In this document: positions 11,425 to 58,169 of the stretch, piece by piece
Numbering within the stretch: position 1 is the first letter of the stretch
How the letters are laid out: the number at the start of each line of letters is the position of its first letter
Source of the DNA: Candidatus Hydrothermarchaeum profundi
Lineage (GTDB): Archaea > Hydrothermarchaeota > Hydrothermarchaeia > Hydrothermarchaeales > Hydrothermarchaeaceae
DNA: 64,000 bases
Direction of reading: 5' to 3'
NCBI GenBank assembly: GCA_002011125.2
Contig: MTMF02000009.1
Span: forward strand, 1,828,989 to 1,892,988
Translations under genes and position numbers: made by a program
The notes under the pieces: generated by a model
The model's input: the letters and a program-made list of their open reading frames with translations, nothing else
The model's database searches: none
What the model was told of the DNA's origin: nothing

Positions 11425-12426
11425 CTATAGCTTTCTTAAAATCAGCCCCCCTACAGCTGCGATAACAACAATACTTGCAACTATCAAGCCTATCACTCCA
11501 ACGGGTAAGCCCCCTTCAGAGACGGCTACGGGTTGCTCTGTGGGAGCAACCATCTGGATTTCCGACTGCATTCCTAGAGAAGCTTCAGCCAAGCTTATAT
11601 GCCTCCCAGCTTCCTCTATCTTTACCTTTGCATCCTTCTTATTACCTGCCAAAAGATCGTCTATAGCCGAGTTCAATGAGCTTTTCGCAGTATCGATGTG
11701 GGAGGAGATTTCTCCAACGTTCTCTCCTGCCTTCTCTTTAACATTAACCCTGTAAACCAGTTTCTCAATCTCTCCATCGTAATTTATAATATCTTTGAGC
11801 AAGGGTTCTATCTCAAACTCGGCCTTAATTTCCTGAGTAAAGGAAATCCCATCAAATATAGCTACAAAGTGGTCTTCAAAGCCGCTGACACCCTGCCAAA
11901 GTTCTCTCCAAGGAGTAGGCTTATAACCCGAAGGGATATACCCTACAGGTACATGCAACCTCACGATTCCTCCTACAGATCCCAGCTCAACATTTTTGCC
12001 CCCCTCGAGTATAGCCTCTGGTTTTCCAAATTTCACTGATGTGCTATACCCTGTGTCTGTCCTACTTAATAACCCCATTGCTTTAAACCTAAACCTCACG
12101 ATTCCTTTAGCACCGGGGTCTACAGGATCTATTAGGCTAACTTTAACATAGGGTAGTCCAGACTCCTCAGAGATAGAAATCTCTTTTACATTTTTTTTGG
12201 AAAACTCTTCATCGCTTTCAATCAGATCAAGTGCAGAGGCAGAGAAAGGCATTTTAAGCCCCACTACTTTCTCTTCAAACCCGTTAGCTATAGAAAGATC
12301 CAGCTCAACTACCGCATCAGGTATTTTATAGCTAACTGAGGCTTGCCATCTGTCAACGCTTACAGAGCCCTGAGCCGCGACAACCGGGAAAAACAAGAAC
12401 AAAGCCAAAAAAAACAAAAACCTCAC
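11425..12426 (-). CDS. Membrane-anchored extracytoplasmic protein, copy A (partner of pentaheme cytochrome)
   Basis: Signal peptide (1-18), a long beta-rich ectodomain, a helical segment (about 235-290) and a C-terminal membrane helix (about 308-330). No cysteines or heme motifs are present. It is paralogous to the protein at 13034-14065: the first ~33 residues and an internal PWRELWQGVSGFEDHFVAIF block are identical at DNA level, while the rest is diverged. GTG at 12426 overlaps the TGA of the upstream cytochrome gene (GTGA), so translation is coupled and the two proteins probably work together at the cell surface. Function unknown. Ends in UAG. Confidence 0.8.
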   Translation of the reverse strand: MRFLFFLALFLFFPVVAAQGSVSVDRWQASVSYKIPDAVVELDLSIANGFEEKVVGLKMPFSASALDLIESDEEFSKKNVKEISISEESGLPYVKVSLIDPVDPGAKGIVRFRFKAMGLLSRTDTGYSTSVKFGKPEAILEGGKNVELGSVGGIVRLHVPVGYIPSGYKPTPWRELWQGVSGFEDHFVAIFDGISFTQEIKAEFEIEPLLKDIINYDGEIEKLVYRVNVKEKAGENVGEISSHIDTAKSSLNSAIDDLLAGNKKDAKVKIEEAGRHISLAEASLGMQSEIQMVAPTEQPVAVSEGGLPVGVIGLIVASIVVIAAVGGLILRKL

Positions 12427-13016
12427 TCCCCCACCCCCCTCAACAACTCCTCAACATTAGCCATAGTAGGCTGATGAATCCTGCCAACACTACCAACATG
12501 ACAGCTACCGCAAGAACCAGACCCCTTAACAACATGGATCTCAATATAATTACCATCAAAATGACACTGCTCACAAACCAAGAGATCCCCCGGCCTCACA
12601 GAAGGAATAGTCACACCCCCGGCCTCACTAAAACTATGACAATCCGTACAATCCAAAAGCCCCTTATCCAAACGAGCCTCATGAATCCTATGAATAGAAA
12701 CCCCATGACAAGTCGTACAAACCTTAGGAGTCCTATTCCTAAGAGAATCCAGCTTAGTGATATCCCTCACATTATGAAAGCCCTCAACCCTACCATGACA
12801 ATCCGGACAAGAAATAGACAACCCAGAAGCCTCAGCAGACTTCTCCACCACGGGAGCAACACCCCCGGCCTCAGACCTAGCCCTCTCCAACTCAGACAAA
12901 TAATACTGAACAGTCTTATCCAAAACCTGGCCATAATAAACCGAAGCCCCCGCATAAGTAATCACGGCGCTCAAGCCCATCATCACCAACAAGACAACAA
13001 CAACACCAAACGTCCT
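12334..13016. repeat. Direct repeat unit A, 683 bp
   Basis: This block is identical, as far as I can read, to 13973-14655, at a constant offset of 1639 bases. It covers nearly all of the cytochrome gene and the first ~33 codons of the downstream surface gene, and ends sharply on both sides. It marks a tandem duplication later kept uniform. Confidence 0.93.
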
Positions 13017-13034
13017 CACAGCCACCATCTCCAT
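12423..13034 (-). CDS. Membrane-anchored pentaheme c-type cytochrome, copy A
   Basis: 203 aa. One N-terminal membrane helix (about 9-32) and a linker precede a domain with five CXXCH motifs at 76-80, 106-110, 129-133, 154-158 and 175-179. Exactly five further histidines (87, 115, 118, 167, 187) could supply the distal ligands, suggesting five bis-His hemes facing outside the membrane. From residue 7 the protein is identical to copy B; only the N-terminus (MEMVAVRT) differs. It overlaps the TAA of the upstream surface gene (TAATG). The coding strand is strikingly G- and T-rich at third positions. Likely role: electron transfer at the envelope; the partner is unknown. Confidence 0.9.
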   Translation of the reverse strand: MEMVAVRTFGVVVVLLVMMGLSAVITYAGASVYYGQVLDKTVQYYLSELERARSEAGGVAPVVEKSAEASGLSISCPDCHGRVEGFHNVRDITKLDSLRNRTPKVCTTCHGVSIHRIHEARLDKGLLDCTDCHSFSEAGGVTIPSVRPGDLLVCEQCHFDGNYIEIHVVKGSGSCGSCHVGSVGRIHQPTMANVEELLRGVGE

Positions 13035-14065
13035 TAATCCTCTTTTCTTTCACCACCTTCTTCTTTTCCTATTAATCTTATTACAATGCCTCCTATAATT
13101 GAGAGAATTATTATACTTAATATAATGCCTGAGAAAATTAAATATTGTGGAATTACCTTTGTTTCTTTTTCAGCGGGTTCTTTGGTTTCTCCGCTTGGAA
13201 CTTCGGACTCTAATCCAAGGGAAACCTTAGCTATGGTTATATATCTGCGAGCAGCTTCCAATTCCACTTCGGCCTTTTCATTATTCCCCTGCACCAAGTT
13301 ATCTATGGATTCCCCGAGGGTAGTTTTTGCTCTATCAACATAGTTTTCCGCTACTACAACGTCTTCCCCAGCGCTTTTTCTAAAATTTATTTCATTAGTG
13401 AGCTTCTCTATTTCGCCATCAGCCTCTATTATATCATAAAGCTTGGGTTCCTCCCTAAATTTCACAATTATTTGTTGGGTTATAGTCACATCCTCAAATA
13501 TGGCTACAAAGTGGTCTTCAAAGCCGCTGACACCCTGCCAAAGTTCTCTCCAAGGCTCTGGCTCGTATTCAACAGGAAGCTGGCCTACTGGAAAGTGAAC
13601 TTTAATTGTTCCCGCACCTATCTGAACCGGAACTTTACTTCCATCCTCGAGTATAGCTGTTGGCTTAGAAAAACTCAGAGTAGTGGTGGAAATCCCGTTC
13701 GTTGTTCTGGTGAGTCCCTCTGTAGAGAACTTTAAAAAAATCTCTCTTGAAGCTCCTTTTTCAATAGGTCTACTGAATATTATTTCGAACTTCGATTTAT
13801 CATCTATGGCGGAGGATTTTACAGTAAAGGTCTCATTTTCAAATCTTTCCTCTTCGGGTATATAGTCTGCATACTTCGCATTAATAATAAGCTCTATACC
13901 AACAACCTTCATTTCCATGTTATTAGTTAATAGAAAATTGAAATCCAAATTTTCTTTCAAAAGATTATAAGAAACTGAGGCTTGCCATCTGTCAACGCTT
14001 ACAGAGCCCTGAGCCGCGACAACCGGGAAAAACAAGAACAAAGCCAAAAAAAACAAAAACCTCAC
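13034..14065 (-). CDS. Membrane-anchored extracytoplasmic protein, copy B (partner of pentaheme cytochrome)
   Basis: 343 aa with the same plan as copy A: signal peptide (1-18), beta-rich ectodomain, helical stretch (about 240-295), C-terminal membrane helix (about 313-333) and a charged tail rich in Glu/Lys. The signal peptide and the PWRELWQGVSGFEDHFVAIF block match copy A exactly. Elsewhere the ectodomains differ strongly, unlike the adjacent cytochromes. The GTG start overlaps the upstream cytochrome stop (GTGA). The strong divergence next to an identical partner suggests the two ectodomains bind different things. Function unknown. Confidence 0.8.
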   Translation of the reverse strand: MRFLFFLALFLFFPVVAAQGSVSVDRWQASVSYNLLKENLDFNFLLTNNMEMKVVGIELIINAKYADYIPEEERFENETFTVKSSAIDDKSKFEIIFSRPIEKGASREIFLKFSTEGLTRTTNGISTTTLSFSKPTAILEDGSKVPVQIGAGTIKVHFPVGQLPVEYEPEPWRELWQGVSGFEDHFVAIFEDVTITQQIIVKFREEPKLYDIIEADGEIEKLTNEINFRKSAGEDVVVAENYVDRAKTTLGESIDNLVQGNNEKAEVELEAARRYITIAKVSLGLESEVPSGETKEPAEKETKVIPQYLIFSGIILSIIILSIIGGIVIRLIGKEEGGERKED

Positions 14066-14655
14066 TCCCCCACCCCCCTCAACAACTCCTCAACATTAGC
14101 CATAGTAGGCTGATGAATCCTGCCAACACTACCAACATGACAGCTACCGCAAGAACCAGACCCCTTAACAACATGGATCTCAATATAATTACCATCAAAA
14201 TGACACTGCTCACAAACCAAGAGATCCCCCGGCCTCACAGAAGGAATAGTCACACCCCCGGCCTCACTAAAACTATGACAATCCGTACAATCCAAAAGCC
14301 CCTTATCCAAACGAGCCTCATGAATCCTATGAATAGAAACCCCATGACAAGTCGTACAAACCTTAGGAGTCCTATTCCTAAGAGAATCCAGCTTAGTGAT
14401 ATCCCTCACATTATGAAAGCCCTCAACCCTACCATGACAATCCGGACAAGAAATAGACAACCCAGAAGCCTCAGCAGACTTCTCCACCACGGGAGCAACA
14501 CCCCCGGCCTCAGACCTAGCCCTCTCCAACTCAGACAAATAATACTGAACAGTCTTATCCAAAACCTGGCCATAATAAACCGAAGCCCCCGCATAAGTAA
14601 TCACGGCGCTCAAGCCCATCATCACCAACAAGACAACAACAACACCAAACGTCCT
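13973..14655. repeat. Direct repeat unit B, 683 bp
   Basis: Second copy of the identical block described at 12334-13016. The sequences diverge immediately outside both ends (promoter side AGCCATTGGG here, CACAGCCACC in copy A). Confidence 0.93.
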
Positions 14656-14661
14656 AGCCAT
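14062..14661 (-). CDS. Membrane-anchored pentaheme c-type cytochrome, copy B
   Basis: 199 aa, identical to copy A except for the first few residues. One N-terminal membrane helix, then five CXXCH heme sites (residues 72-76, 102-106, 125-129, 150-154, 171-175) and five extra histidines. ATG at 14661 is preceded by GGAGAGG. As first gene of the minus-strand run it is probably transcribed from an AT-rich promoter at 14690-14730, with the surface protein and the second unit following. No cytochrome c maturation genes are visible in the window. Confidence 0.9.
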   Translation of the reverse strand: MARTFGVVVVLLVMMGLSAVITYAGASVYYGQVLDKTVQYYLSELERARSEAGGVAPVVEKSAEASGLSISCPDCHGRVEGFHNVRDITKLDSLRNRTPKVCTTCHGVSIHRIHEARLDKGLLDCTDCHSFSEAGGVTIPSVRPGDLLVCEQCHFDGNYIEIHVVKGSGSCGSCHVGSVGRIHQPTMANVEELLRGVGE

Positions 14662-36594: not shown

Positions 36595-36861
36595 TTATTT
36601 CACCTTCTTTTTATATAGCCTTTTCTCTTTATCATTGGCATCTCTTGCTGTAATCCCTTTCATGTAGAACATGTCTTTATAGGGTTCAGCGATTACAGCT
36701 AATATTCTTCCATAGTAACTGCACAGGATCAAGTATCTGTTATGCGTCGTCCTTTTAACGAACTTTTTACCTTTTAGAGCCTGGTTGACTTGCGACCTAG
36801 ACAAACCATGCCTGGCGATATGCTGCTCGGCCTTCTTAGTCCACTTAACCCTGATCTTCAT
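36595..36861 (-). CDS. BrnT/DUF4258-like putative RNase toxin
   Basis: 88 aa. VKWTKKAEQHIARHGLSRSQV, a central NRYLILCSYYGR strand pair and ITARDANDKEKRLY match the small RelE-fold toxins of the BrnT/DUF4258 type. ATG at 36861 is preferred; the open frame extends 15 codons further but those read as a hydrophobic artefact. The partner is the 48-aa gene just downstream. Confidence 0.7.
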   Translation of the reverse strand: MKIRVKWTKKAEQHIARHGLSRSQVNQALKGKKFVKRTTHNRYLILCSYYGRILAVIAEPYKDMFYMKGITARDANDKEKRLYKKKVK

Positions 36862-37011
36862 GAATACCCAAAGCAAAAAAAAGCCTATGAAATAAGAAAA
36901 AAACATATAAAAACCGAATTTAAATAGTTAGACATCTTATTTTTAGTGGGAATACCGACTCCTAAAAAAATCTTTAAATAACATGAAGATTAGTTCTTTC
37001 TGGGTTTTAAC

Positions 37012-49801: not shown

Positions 49802-51208
49802 ATGGATTACCGTGTTAGAATTGGAGACGGCTCATTAAAATACCTCTCCAAGAAAGAGATAAAGGAAGACATTGAAGACGGAACCAAGGACGCTGCTGAC
49901 CGCGGAGAAATACCAGAACTAACTGATGACGATAAAGAGAGGCTACTTGAAATAGTAACCGAGCCTAATAAGATCGTCAGCGTTTCACCGGGCGAAGAGG
50001 TAGTTATGACAAATGACGTAGGAACACTCACTATCCAAGGTGACCAAGGGAACAGCGGGGTAGGACTACCGCTAGATCGTATACAATGTATACTTACTCA
50101 AGAGCGTGCTTTTGGATCTGACACAATGGAACTAGCCCACACCGATTACAGCTTCAAACCCGTTAAGCCCATCATAGCAATGGAACAACAAGCTCTCGAA
50201 CAGGCAGAACTATTAACAGTGATACCAGTCTTCTATGGAGCAATGCCAAACCTTGGACAGTACTATGTTATAGACGGGCCTTTCCCAAATCCGAATGATC
50301 TATATAGAGATCTGAAAATAAAAGAAGCTCGCGAGAGCCAGGAGGAATGCGCTGAGCATGCCTCGAACAATATGAGTTGGATAGGTCAAAGACTTTGGGA
50401 GGTAGGATGCGAAGGACTAAACTTCGATACTACCGCCGCAGCCGGAGATACCGACTTCTATGCTACTCTGACAGCTACTGAAGAGTTAAAGAAGACTACC
50501 TCTGAAATGTGCATAGAAATGGGCATGGCCGCAGAATACGTGCTCGGGATGCATGGGGAGCTAAAATATGGTGGCGAGCTTCTAGCAGGCCTGTATCCAC
50601 ATCAGCAAGTAAAAGTCGCAGAAAAAGCAGGAGTAGATATATTTGGTCCAGTAGTGAATACCAATACTAGCAAGTCTTTTCCATGGAATATTGCAAGAGC
50701 GCTTACTTTCGTGAAGGAATGCGTAAAACAGTCCAATATACCCATACATGTCAACATGGGAATGGGCGTAGGCGGAATCCCCATGTACGAGACGCCGCCA
50801 GTAGATGCCGTTACAAGGGCTTCTAAGGCAATGGTTCAGATTGCCCACGTCGACGGTATATAGATGGGAGTCGGCGACCCGGTGGGCATGCCTATAAGCC
50901 ATATAATGGCATCTGGCATGGGCGGACTTAGAACAGCGGGAGACCTAGTTGCTAGAATGCAGATGAGCAAAAAAATGAGGATTAATGAAGCCAAGGAGTA
51001 TGTAGCGAAAAAGCTAAACTTAACTCCAAGCGAGCTCTCAGACGAGTATGTCATGAGAGAAGTGAGAGAAGAGCTGGATATAGGGATTATAACACCAGTA
51101 CCGGGAGCAGCGAAAGGGATAGAAGCTAAAGTCAGGATCGCTGAGCTACTGGATATAACTATAAATCCGGTAGAGAGACTAAAAAATAAAGAAAAATTCA
51201 AAAGCTAA
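49802..51208 (+). CDS. mtbB: Dimethylamine methyltransferase with pyrrolysine (UAG at codon 354)
   Basis: 468 aa including pyrrolysine. Two frames are joined by an in-frame UAG at 50861-50863: ...AHVDGI-[UAG][20 protein letters not shown]. The known Methanosarcina MtbB has Pyl at 356 in the same context, and the downstream [11 protein letters not shown] part is needed for a full barrel. It transfers a methyl from dimethylamine to MtbC. ATG at 49802 has AGGAGGTG upstream. It ends at TAA and is followed by a strong terminator. Ordinary annotation would split it into two proteins (353 and 114 aa). Confidence 0.96.
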
Positions 51209-56109: not shown

Positions 56110-57489
56110 CTACTTGATGTCAACGCCGAGTTCCCGTAGAGTGTTCACGGCCTTATCATACACCTGCAGGTGCTCCTCAGTAGGAACAACCTTAACCACG
56201 TCATAACACTCCTGGAACCTCTTACCCTTAGGCGCCGTCTTATAGTCACTCTCGTACTTCTTAATCAAATTATCCAAGATCACGTTAACCTCACTGATAT
56301 CCATGCCAGCCACAGCAATAGCCGCCTCACCCATAATCCGGGCCTCCATACCAGTCGTATAATCCAACGCAACGCCCTTAGCACTAGCACTACCACTAAC
56401 AAGCTCACGGCCACTAGCAGTGTCAGTAATAGCCTGAGCAGCCGTCTCCAACAAACACATCTCAGTACACGGACCCGCCAACGGATAATACTGGTTCGAA
56501 GTCAACAAATGAGTATTCTCATCAATAGCCCTAGCCGTATGCCCAGCCACCTGCAGGGTCTCACGCGCAGTAGTGATACCCCACCTGATATGGATAGGCC
56601 CATCCAAGTGATAACTCCCATTCAACAAGGTGAAGCTCGTCAAATGAGTAGCCACGTTACAGATCGAGGTCTCCTCGACCCCGCCAGCATAGCCACCAAA
56701 GATAGGCATCTGCTCCACCATAATAATATCACCATTCTGAACCCAACCAGCAATCATATGCAGGCCACCATTATCAATCTTAAGCTCATTCAACTGACTG
56801 ATCTCATGGCTATCACAAGGCCTCAAGCCACCCAGGAGATCCCCGGCAAGACGCCCCGCACTCGTCAAGGGCGTCTCTGGGCCCTAAACCGCCATATAGG
56901 GTCTCCCAGCCTTACGACAAGCCTCACGGATATAATACAACTCAAACAGAGTAGCCTTAATCTCCCAAGGACTACCGCTAGTAGCCTCATTACCCTCAAT
57001 AGTAGCCAACACACCATTCACAATAGTATCCACCGTAGGCTCCTGAGCATAACTCTGAAACATCGGGATAAAAATATCCTCACTAACAGGAGCACCCGTA
57101 GGACCGCCCTGAATAACAGGCTTAAAACCAGGATTACCACGACGCTGCGCCATATCCACTGCGTCCTGATACTCGCCCAACACGAGCTTCCTAGGCGCCT
57201 TCTTAATAGACTCAAGAACCTCGTCCTCAGAGACCCTGATAACCCTTCCGGTGTCAATATTATAGATCCCAGTCTCCACCAACATCTCCAAGCCGGCCTG
57301 GAACAAGTTATCAATCAGCTCACTGTCCGTAGGAATAATCTCACCCGAAAACTTGATGTTATACTTCTCCTTCATCTTAGCAGCATTCTGCGGGATAATC
57401 TTATAATCCCAGTCACGCTCACTAACCTTCTCCCCACTAATCGACCTATTATAGGTCTCATACACATCTAAAGGCCTACCAACCGCCAA
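56110..57489 (-). CDS. mtmB: Monomethylamine methyltransferase with pyrrolysine (UAG at codon 202)
   Basis: 459 aa including pyrrolysine. An in-frame UAG (minus strand, 56884-56886) joins the halves: ...RKAGRPYMAV-[UAG]-GPETPLTSAGRLAG. Methanosarcina MtmB has Pyl at exactly 202 in the same context, and DSHEISQLNELKID, DEQMP-like VEQMPIFGGYAGG and AGPCTEMCLLE follow as expected. It moves methyl from monomethylamine to MtmC. The start is TTG at 57489 behind GGAGGTGA. A 7-bp hairpin follows the UAG. The normal stop is also UAG, with UAA two codons on. Conventional calling would split it into 201 and 252 aa pieces. Confidence 0.97.
56850..56875 (-). promoter_or_regulatory. PYLIS-like hairpin after the mtmB UAG
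   Basis: Eight bases beyond the UAG on the mRNA, GACGCCC pairs with GGGCGTC over a 12-base loop. The position matches the proposed PYLIS stem of Methanosarcina mtmB, which may help pyrrolysine insertion. The sequence differs but the pairing is perfect. Confidence 0.6.
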
Positions 57490-57524: not shown

Positions 57525-58169
57525 TTAGTCGCCAACAAGCTCCTTCGCAATCCTCACAGCCTCAGCACCATTCGGACAATAAGCGTCACCGCCAATCTCA
57601 TCCACCCACTCCTGGTTAACAGGCGCACCGCCAAACAACGTCTTCACCTTATCCCGGATCCCAGCCTCCTTCAAAGCCTTAACAATCTCCCTCTGACCAG
57701 GACGCGTAGTAGTCATAAGAGCACTAGCACCAACGATATCAGCATTAACCTCCTTAGCGGTCTCAACGAACTTATCGATAGGAGCATCCCGGCCAATATC
57801 AATCACATCAAAGCCAGCGCCCTGAAGCATAGCAGCAACAACGTTCTTACCGATCTCATGGATATCCCCCTCAACAGTACCGATAACCACTACCTTACCC
57901 ATCTTCTCCCCAGACTCCATGATCTTAGGCTTCAAGACCTCAAGACCCGCCTGCATAGCCTCCGCAGCCATCAAGATCTGAGGCAAAAAGATCTTGGCCT
58001 CATCAAAAAGGTCGCTGATAGTCATCATACCCCTACCCAAGCCGTCATTAATAGCCTCAAAAGGCTCAATGCCCGCCTCCAACGCCTCCTTAGCCGCAGA
58101 GCTAGCCAAGTCAGCATCATAGGTCTCCACGGCTTTCTTCAACTTATCAAGAATCTCCTGCTTAAACAA
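57525..58169 (-). CDS. mtmC: Monomethylamine corrinoid protein
   Basis: 214 aa, homologous to MtbC. Corrinoid motif GDIHEIGKN with the cobalt-ligand His, GASALMTTT, and FGGAPV. Its codon use is rich in G and T third bases, unlike mtbC. The start is TTG at 58169 with GGGGGTGA upstream. It sits 35 bases before mtmB in one operon and carries the methyl group from MtmB onward. Confidence 0.94.
   Translation of the reverse strand: MFKQEILDKLKKAVETYDADLASSAAKEALEAGIEPFEAINDGLGRGMMTISDLFDEAKIFLPQILMAAEAMQAGLEVLKPKIMESGEKMGKVVVIGTVEGDIHEIGKNVVAAMLQGAGFDVIDIGRDAPIDKFVETAKEVNADIVGASALMTTTRPGQREIVKALKEAGIRDKVKTLFGGAPVNQEWVDEIGGDAYCPNGAEAVRIAKELVGD

Follow-up and report, generated by a model that had tools for sequence, protein, structure and literature searches.

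We analyzed a 64,000-nucleotide stretch (the window, below) of contig MTMF02000009.1 from the archaeon Candidatus Hydrothermarchaeum profundi, in which a gene pair encoding a multiheme cytochrome and a surface-type partner protein is present twice in tandem. The two copies probably resulted from an old duplication, with gene conversion holding one part of them identical. The codon state of this identical part is more surprising than the duplication itself: neither cytochrome contains a single sense codon ending in A (NNA codon), against approximately 61 expected from their amino acids (log10 P about -35 under background usage).

Four co-directional genes occupy the minus strand at 11425-14661, in the order cytochrome B, partner B, cytochrome A and partner A (Table 1). 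The stop codon of each cytochrome overlaps the start codon of its downstream partner (4 nt in each unit), and an operon is predicted from this layout. The tandem duplication, with a 683-bp identical block and diverged ectodomains, was confirmed as the preliminary description had given it. The two copies of the block lie at a spacing of 1639 nt, show zero differences and span codons 7-204 of cytochrome A, codons 3-200 of cytochrome B and codons 1-31 of each partner. Since this exact match adjoins sequence with 49% identity, it is not due to chance. No further copy of either gene was found in the assembly.

Outside the block and a 53-nt core, 98 of 277 aligned partner codons encoded identical residues, with a nucleotide identity of 0.49 (45% amino acid identity over the whole partners). 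Synonymous codon differences were found at 56 of these 98 identical residues, compared with none in the block. Thus, these tandem paralogs show the pattern of domain-limited concerted evolution, in which one part is identical and the other has long diverged, including at synonymous sites. The preliminary description had offered either a very recent duplication or continual gene conversion; the conversion part stands, whereas a recent duplication does not, because it could not yield a partner identity of 0.49 beside 683 identical nucleotides. The 53-nt core, an exact tract shared by the two ectodomains, looks like a second, small conversion tract. Both this tract and the NNA-free state of the cytochromes are additions to the preliminary description. 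No relative with both cytochrome copies was found, and the sole genome of the same family (62% complete) had no match to either the cytochrome or the partner.

Table 1. Positions of the duplicated genes, their exact tracts and other NNA-poor genes (window coordinates unless a locus is named)
Feature	Position	Strand	Description
Cytochrome copy B	14062-14661	-	N-terminal membrane anchor (hydrophobic peak at residues 4-22), five CXXCH motifs, 0 NNA sense codons
Partner B	13034-14065	-	Signal peptide, beta-sandwich ectodomain, helical bundle, C-terminal membrane helix (hydrophobic peak at 314-332)
Cytochrome copy A	12423-13034	-	Same as copy B apart from the N-terminus
Partner A	11425-12426	-	45% identical to partner B
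683-nt exact block, copy A	12334-13016	-	
683-nt exact block, copy B	13973-14655	-	
53-nt exact tract, partner A ectodomain	11861-11913	-	Encodes PWRELWQGVSGFEDHFVA; 17 of 18 codons identical
53-nt exact tract, partner B ectodomain	13503-13555	-	
mtmC-type corrinoid protein	57525-58169	-	2 NNA codons seen, 74.1 expected
mtmB, monomethylamine methyltransferase	56110-57489	-	In-frame TAG at codon 202; 7 NNA codons seen, 147.7 expected
Giant cytochrome	L106 11624-17731 (G000:C9 about 936624-942731)		2035 aa, 33 CXXCH motifs; NNA-free stretch search

Codon usage in the identical block and elsewhere

NNA depletion affected all amino-acid families, and A was near normal at the first and second codon positions of both the cytochrome (0.25 and 0.26) and mtmB (0.32 and 0.32; background, 0.34 and 0.32). 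Among 462 genes called in the window and 20 evenly spaced stretches of the genome, the median fraction of A at third positions (A3) was 0.332. The lowest values belonged to the cytochrome and mtmC, followed by an antisense frame of mtmB (0.15) and then by a real gene (0.16). Cytochrome B and mtmB themselves were omitted by the gene caller because longer antisense frames overlap them, and both were counted apart. Ribosomal proteins (A3 of 0.32-0.45) and the other corrinoid operons that we looked at showed normal codon usage. The favored third base in the NNA-poor genes was G or T; in the cytochrome, TTG was used for 12 of the 16 leucines and AGG for 11 of the 12 arginines, and CGG was never used. 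The coding strand of the block had a G+T content of 0.70, compared with a gene mean of 0.506 (standard deviation 0.034, 761 genes). The window and 26 further stretches hold tRNA genes of both the C34 and U34 types, and decoding therefore showed no unusual feature in them. Limited full-text searches of the literature yielded no description of NNA-free tracts, which does not show that none has been published.

In mtmB, two of the seven NNA codons (196 and 204) flank the in-frame TAG and are perhaps kept for an RNA element at this site. Two other frames in the window were recorded beside these genes. A dimethylamine methyltransferase frame (49802-50863) with normal codons matched positions 2-353 of the 463-position Dimeth_Pyl family and is likely interrupted by another read-through TAG, as the family continues past the end of the frame. 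A 103-aa frame (36595-36906), resembling by eye the toxin of a toxin-antitoxin pair, had partly G-rich third positions.

A giant cytochrome gene elsewhere in the genome has the same codon state in parts of its length. It contains two exact tandem copies of 1332 nt, 1491 nt apart, each with a 336-codon NNA-free run (81.5 NNA codons expected in the first copy), and its codons 1-901 contain 247 NNA codons against 231.8 expected. Nearby genes encode, among others, a 25-heme protein and a surface-type protein of 2250 aa. The gene was reached by a search for NNA-free stretches; frame-blind NNB patterns gave many antisense-type matches. Both rest on the matches listed, and non-heme NNA-free genes elsewhere may therefore be missed. 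A heme-anchored pattern was more useful: among the matches listed in the whole-genome search, 26 were found. Of these, 24 were exact, with 14 falling in the giant gene and the other 10 in the cytochrome pair, and two, located elsewhere, had one mismatch.

In a codon log-odds scan of 567 genes, nine scored above 18.9, the highest value reached in 20 null replicates. Three of them were the giant gene, mtmC and cytochrome A; the other six were a PAS kinase (L092), a CMD protein (window 29484), two tandem CBS genes (L088), an ABC-permease-like frame named by eye (L081) and cdc48 (L074). Because the cytochrome, mtmBC and the repeated cassette of the giant gene served to train the scores, these rank high by construction; the short tracts are tentative because the null ignores gene-to-gene differences. 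Four weak tracts (threshold 17) were obtained from a second sample of 367 genes; they are of a different kind, with G more frequent than T, and lie partly in integrase-like genes. As for cdc48, contig C9 starts inside this gene with a near-NNA-free tract (L074 1-117; A3 of 0.03, 39 codons), and the start of contig C8 (L156) appeared by eye to be the continuation of the gene cut there. Short direct repeats with spacers, resembling a CRISPR array, were also seen in L082 (3184-3295 and 19557-19777).

With regard to the relationship between exact repeats and NNA-free tracts, we found that a 113-nt exact tract in the CBS pair coincides with a 35-codon NNA-free run. In three cases (the cytochrome pair, the giant gene and the CBS pair), the exact tract begins either at the gene start or within 1-3 codons of the NNA-free run, and it overruns the 3' end of the run by 10, 111 and 4 codons, respectively. 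Exact tandem repeats occurred in two of the seven anomalous loci (cytochrome pair excluded), compared with three other genes (rough one-sided Fisher P of 5e-4, for categories assembled by hand after looking). These data suggest, weakly and with low confidence, that NNA-free tracts are DNA segments of atypical codon usage that are copied as units from one related sequence to another.

A putative electron relay

Both cytochromes matched the Cytochrome_C7 profile (PF14522) at 38.8 and 39.5 bits (the latter for copy B), above the gathering cut-off of 24.8. The c7 fold holds three hemes, and five CXXCH motifs were counted here in each copy; the predicted structure, with a predicted local distance difference test (pLDDT) score of 47, was unusable. 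No NapC/NirT (PF03264) match was present among the Pfam matches up to E 1 for either cytochrome, the NCBIfam NapC and NrfH profiles scored far under their cut-offs, and a sequence comparison with solved structures gave nothing convincing (best E 0.092). An alignment of 11 sequences (A4) revealed five invariant histidines beyond the CXXCH motifs (H83, H111, H114, H163 and H183). The cytochrome probably carries five bis-His hemes, because five motifs and five further invariant histidines are the number needed.

Judging from hydrophobic peaks, the cytochrome and both partners look membrane-bound, the former by its N-terminal anchor and the latter by a signal peptide and a C-terminal helix. Partner B had no Pfam family at E<=1, and no relative of the partner was found by sequence among solved structures (best E 0.019). 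The partner model (mean pLDDT of 64, three sequences) consisted of a beta-sandwich, a helical bundle and a membrane helix. Its fold matches were 2pmr (Z 10.6 over 74 residues of the helical part), an oligosaccharyltransferase subunit (6ezn_A, Z 9.7), integrins and YcnI (Z 7.4). Foldseek and VIA-align thus returned common arrangements only, which were not used as evidence of partner function.

Relatives by cytochrome profile were found in Hydrothermarchaeota, namely in Candidatus Pyrohabitans (JdFR-16 and JdFR-17), several other metagenome-assembled genomes and BMS3Abin16; five further matches were bacterial (E of 8e-6 or weaker). The cytochrome was present at E 1e-5 in 15 of 61 genomes, our own included, although several matches are short or involve other multiheme proteins. 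The partner was present in two of the 61 (our own and G010). Among nine relative loci (L005-L013), the partner adjoined a full-length cytochrome in L010 only; a tenth (L014) ends at a contig edge and was left out. No cytochrome relative was found in viral contigs, and a viral origin was rejected. The best functional hint comes from BMS3Abin16 (L033), the one relative with the pair. There, the cytochrome and the partner precede two monoheme cytochromes c, after which come a Rieske protein and the N- and C-parts of a split cytochrome b, hinting at a relay beside a quinol-oxidizing complex.

The genome also contains heme attachment machinery, on which the preliminary description had made its electron-transfer proposal depend: five PF01578 (Cytochrom_C_asm) matches above the cut-off point to a cytochrome c maturation system with Ccm-type genes. 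Two of these matches lie in stretch L091, which also encodes another multiheme cytochrome. The methylamine corrinoid methylotrophy suspected earlier was likewise borne out, with mtmB, mtbB and a corrinoid protein found. On the other hand, the notion of one fixed carrier with varying partners was overstated: two partners do exist, but there are only two, and their most conserved motif is the exact 53-nt tract.

It is plausible that the pair is a putative extracellular electron-transfer module. The cytochrome would be anchored by its N-terminal helix, with its five hemes outside the membrane, and the partner would hold it at the membrane surface, such that the pair might relay electrons from a quinol-oxidizing bc-type complex to outer multiheme cytochromes. 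Conversion might keep the cytochromes identical since both copies must accept electrons from one donor, and the two ectodomains may have diversified for different neighbors. Identical cytochromes beside diverging partners could illustrate a way for an archaeon to place a single electron carrier in two surface contexts. Taken together, a conversion-held cytochrome, diversified partners, an electron relay and codon-atypical tracts copied as units form the explanation that we favor, with moderate confidence in the whole.

Several observations weigh against this explanation. First, the multiheme cytochrome in L091 (61-396) contains a 336-nt exact tandem repeat with normal codons (49 NNA among 111), an 87-nt repeat in L104 has 8 NNA codons out of 29, and a repeat-rich gene in L173 has no NNA-free tract. 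Second, mtmBC is anomalous, yet no repeat or second copy of it is present in the assembly. Third, the partner was not found in most relatives having the cytochrome and is therefore not essential to it. Finally, the bc-complex context was taken from a relative, BMS3Abin16, and the quality of the cytochrome model is too low for it to be used.

Possible origins of the NNA-free state

Ordinary codon selection for extremely abundant proteins, with duplication and conversion serving dosage, is possible, although we consider it doubtful. The methyltransferase genes and the cytochromes plausibly encode mass proteins, and the leucine and arginine preferences of the cytochrome look codon-specific. Moreover, the mtm genes of the methylotroph G050 are also poorer in NNA (0.19 versus 0.38 at fourfold sites). 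However, G050 favors C at the third base, and the ribosomal proteins of our genome show no trace of such selection. There are also no intermediates, the lowest real non-anomalous gene among the first 462 being the one with an A3 of 0.16, and the giant gene is NNA-free in only 336 codons per repeat of its 2035. In G050 (L142 and L148), several similar mtm gene sets with reduced NNA and a preference for C-ending codons were observed. Stable RNA structure was considered and set aside as a by-product: compared with background recodings, the NNA-free genes form more stable folds, but for cytochrome B the difference is only approximately 1.4 standard deviations.

Archaeal RadA shares the preference of the RecA family for GT-rich single strands, and a GT-rich coding strand might thus be recombinogenic and its tracts homogenized for that reason. 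We regard this explanation as unlikely. The G+T content of the block agrees with it, as does the excess of exact tandem repeats among the anomalous loci, which was however counted by hand after looking. It leaves unexplained both the source of the codon bias and the exact repeat in L091 with normal codons. No study of GT-rich DNA together with the pairing and preference of RadA was found in a limited full-text search. A sequence preference of RecA has been reported, and it has long been asked whether codon use or a preference in recombination underlies the G/T-richness of coding strands (PMC3763553). If the tracts hold up, sharp NNA-free tracts beside normal sequence within one gene would provide a direct test case for it, and codon choice, gene conversion and extracellular respiration, which are usually studied apart, would become linked.

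We give little credence to a second synonymous-codon "dialect" without A-ending codons, readable by G34 and C34 tRNAs alone, whose sharp-edged tracts were moved by conversion and mark genes for methylamine use and electron disposal. In this same reading, the dialect might comprise messages translatable when wobble-U tRNAs are impaired, or traces of an unseen NNA-avoiding donor genome.

It is very unlikely that a base-specific mutator, such as deamination of the non-template strand or a reverse transcriptase that mutates adenine, removed A where the protein allowed. Loss of third-position A with the proteins kept could follow from such a process plus purifying selection, and G and T make up 70% of the coding strand in the block. 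However, A is near normal at codon positions 1 and 2, the arginines of the cytochrome remain AGG (11) and have not shifted to CGG (0), and the 35-nt mtmC-mtmB spacer retains 8 A. Simple deamination does not apply because T as well as G rose at fourfold sites, and the retained AGG and near-normal first and second positions count against a diversity-generating retroelement, no reverse transcriptase search having been made.

Finally, an assembly error, such as two strain versions of one locus set in a row, is highly improbable: long exact repeats do assemble poorly and the source contig, a scaffold of 1.9 Mb, contains at least one gap elsewhere (100 N at L173 18995), but partners at 45% identity differ too much to be strain alleles, the genes adjoin one another with neat stop-start overlaps, and no N occurs in the window or in the first stretches of our own genome. 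A pure assembly duplicate is unlikely because the partners have diverged and the flanks are unique. When contig ends were tested for repeats, only the C9 start inside cdc48 carried a tract, which was not decisive.

Comparison with known systems

The cytochromes resemble the cytochrome c7 family (PF14522) in their profile scores and differ from it in having five hemes and a membrane anchor; they are at most 42% identical to the pentaheme relatives found. They appear to share an N-terminal anchor and several bis-His hemes with the membrane-anchored cytochromes NapC/NirT and NrfH, from which the profile results above separate them. Multiheme c-type cytochromes of Hydrothermarchaeota, the same phylum, have been proposed to function in terminal or extracellular electron transfer (PMC6775978, PMC6759336); the passages of these papers that we consulted contain neither a pentaheme-partner pair nor a tandem duplication. 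No literature joining multiheme cytochromes with gene conversion was found in a limited full-text search.

Domain-limited gene conversion is already known as a kind. According to PMC4632066, mtrA-1 and mtrA-2 of methanogens are likewise tandem archaeal operon paralogs in which one domain has been homogenized by conversion and the other is different. In that system a fusion sets the membrane domain apart and the pattern is found across two lineages, whereas here the homogenized part is the whole cytochrome together with the signal peptide of the next gene, in one genome, and is free of NNA codons.

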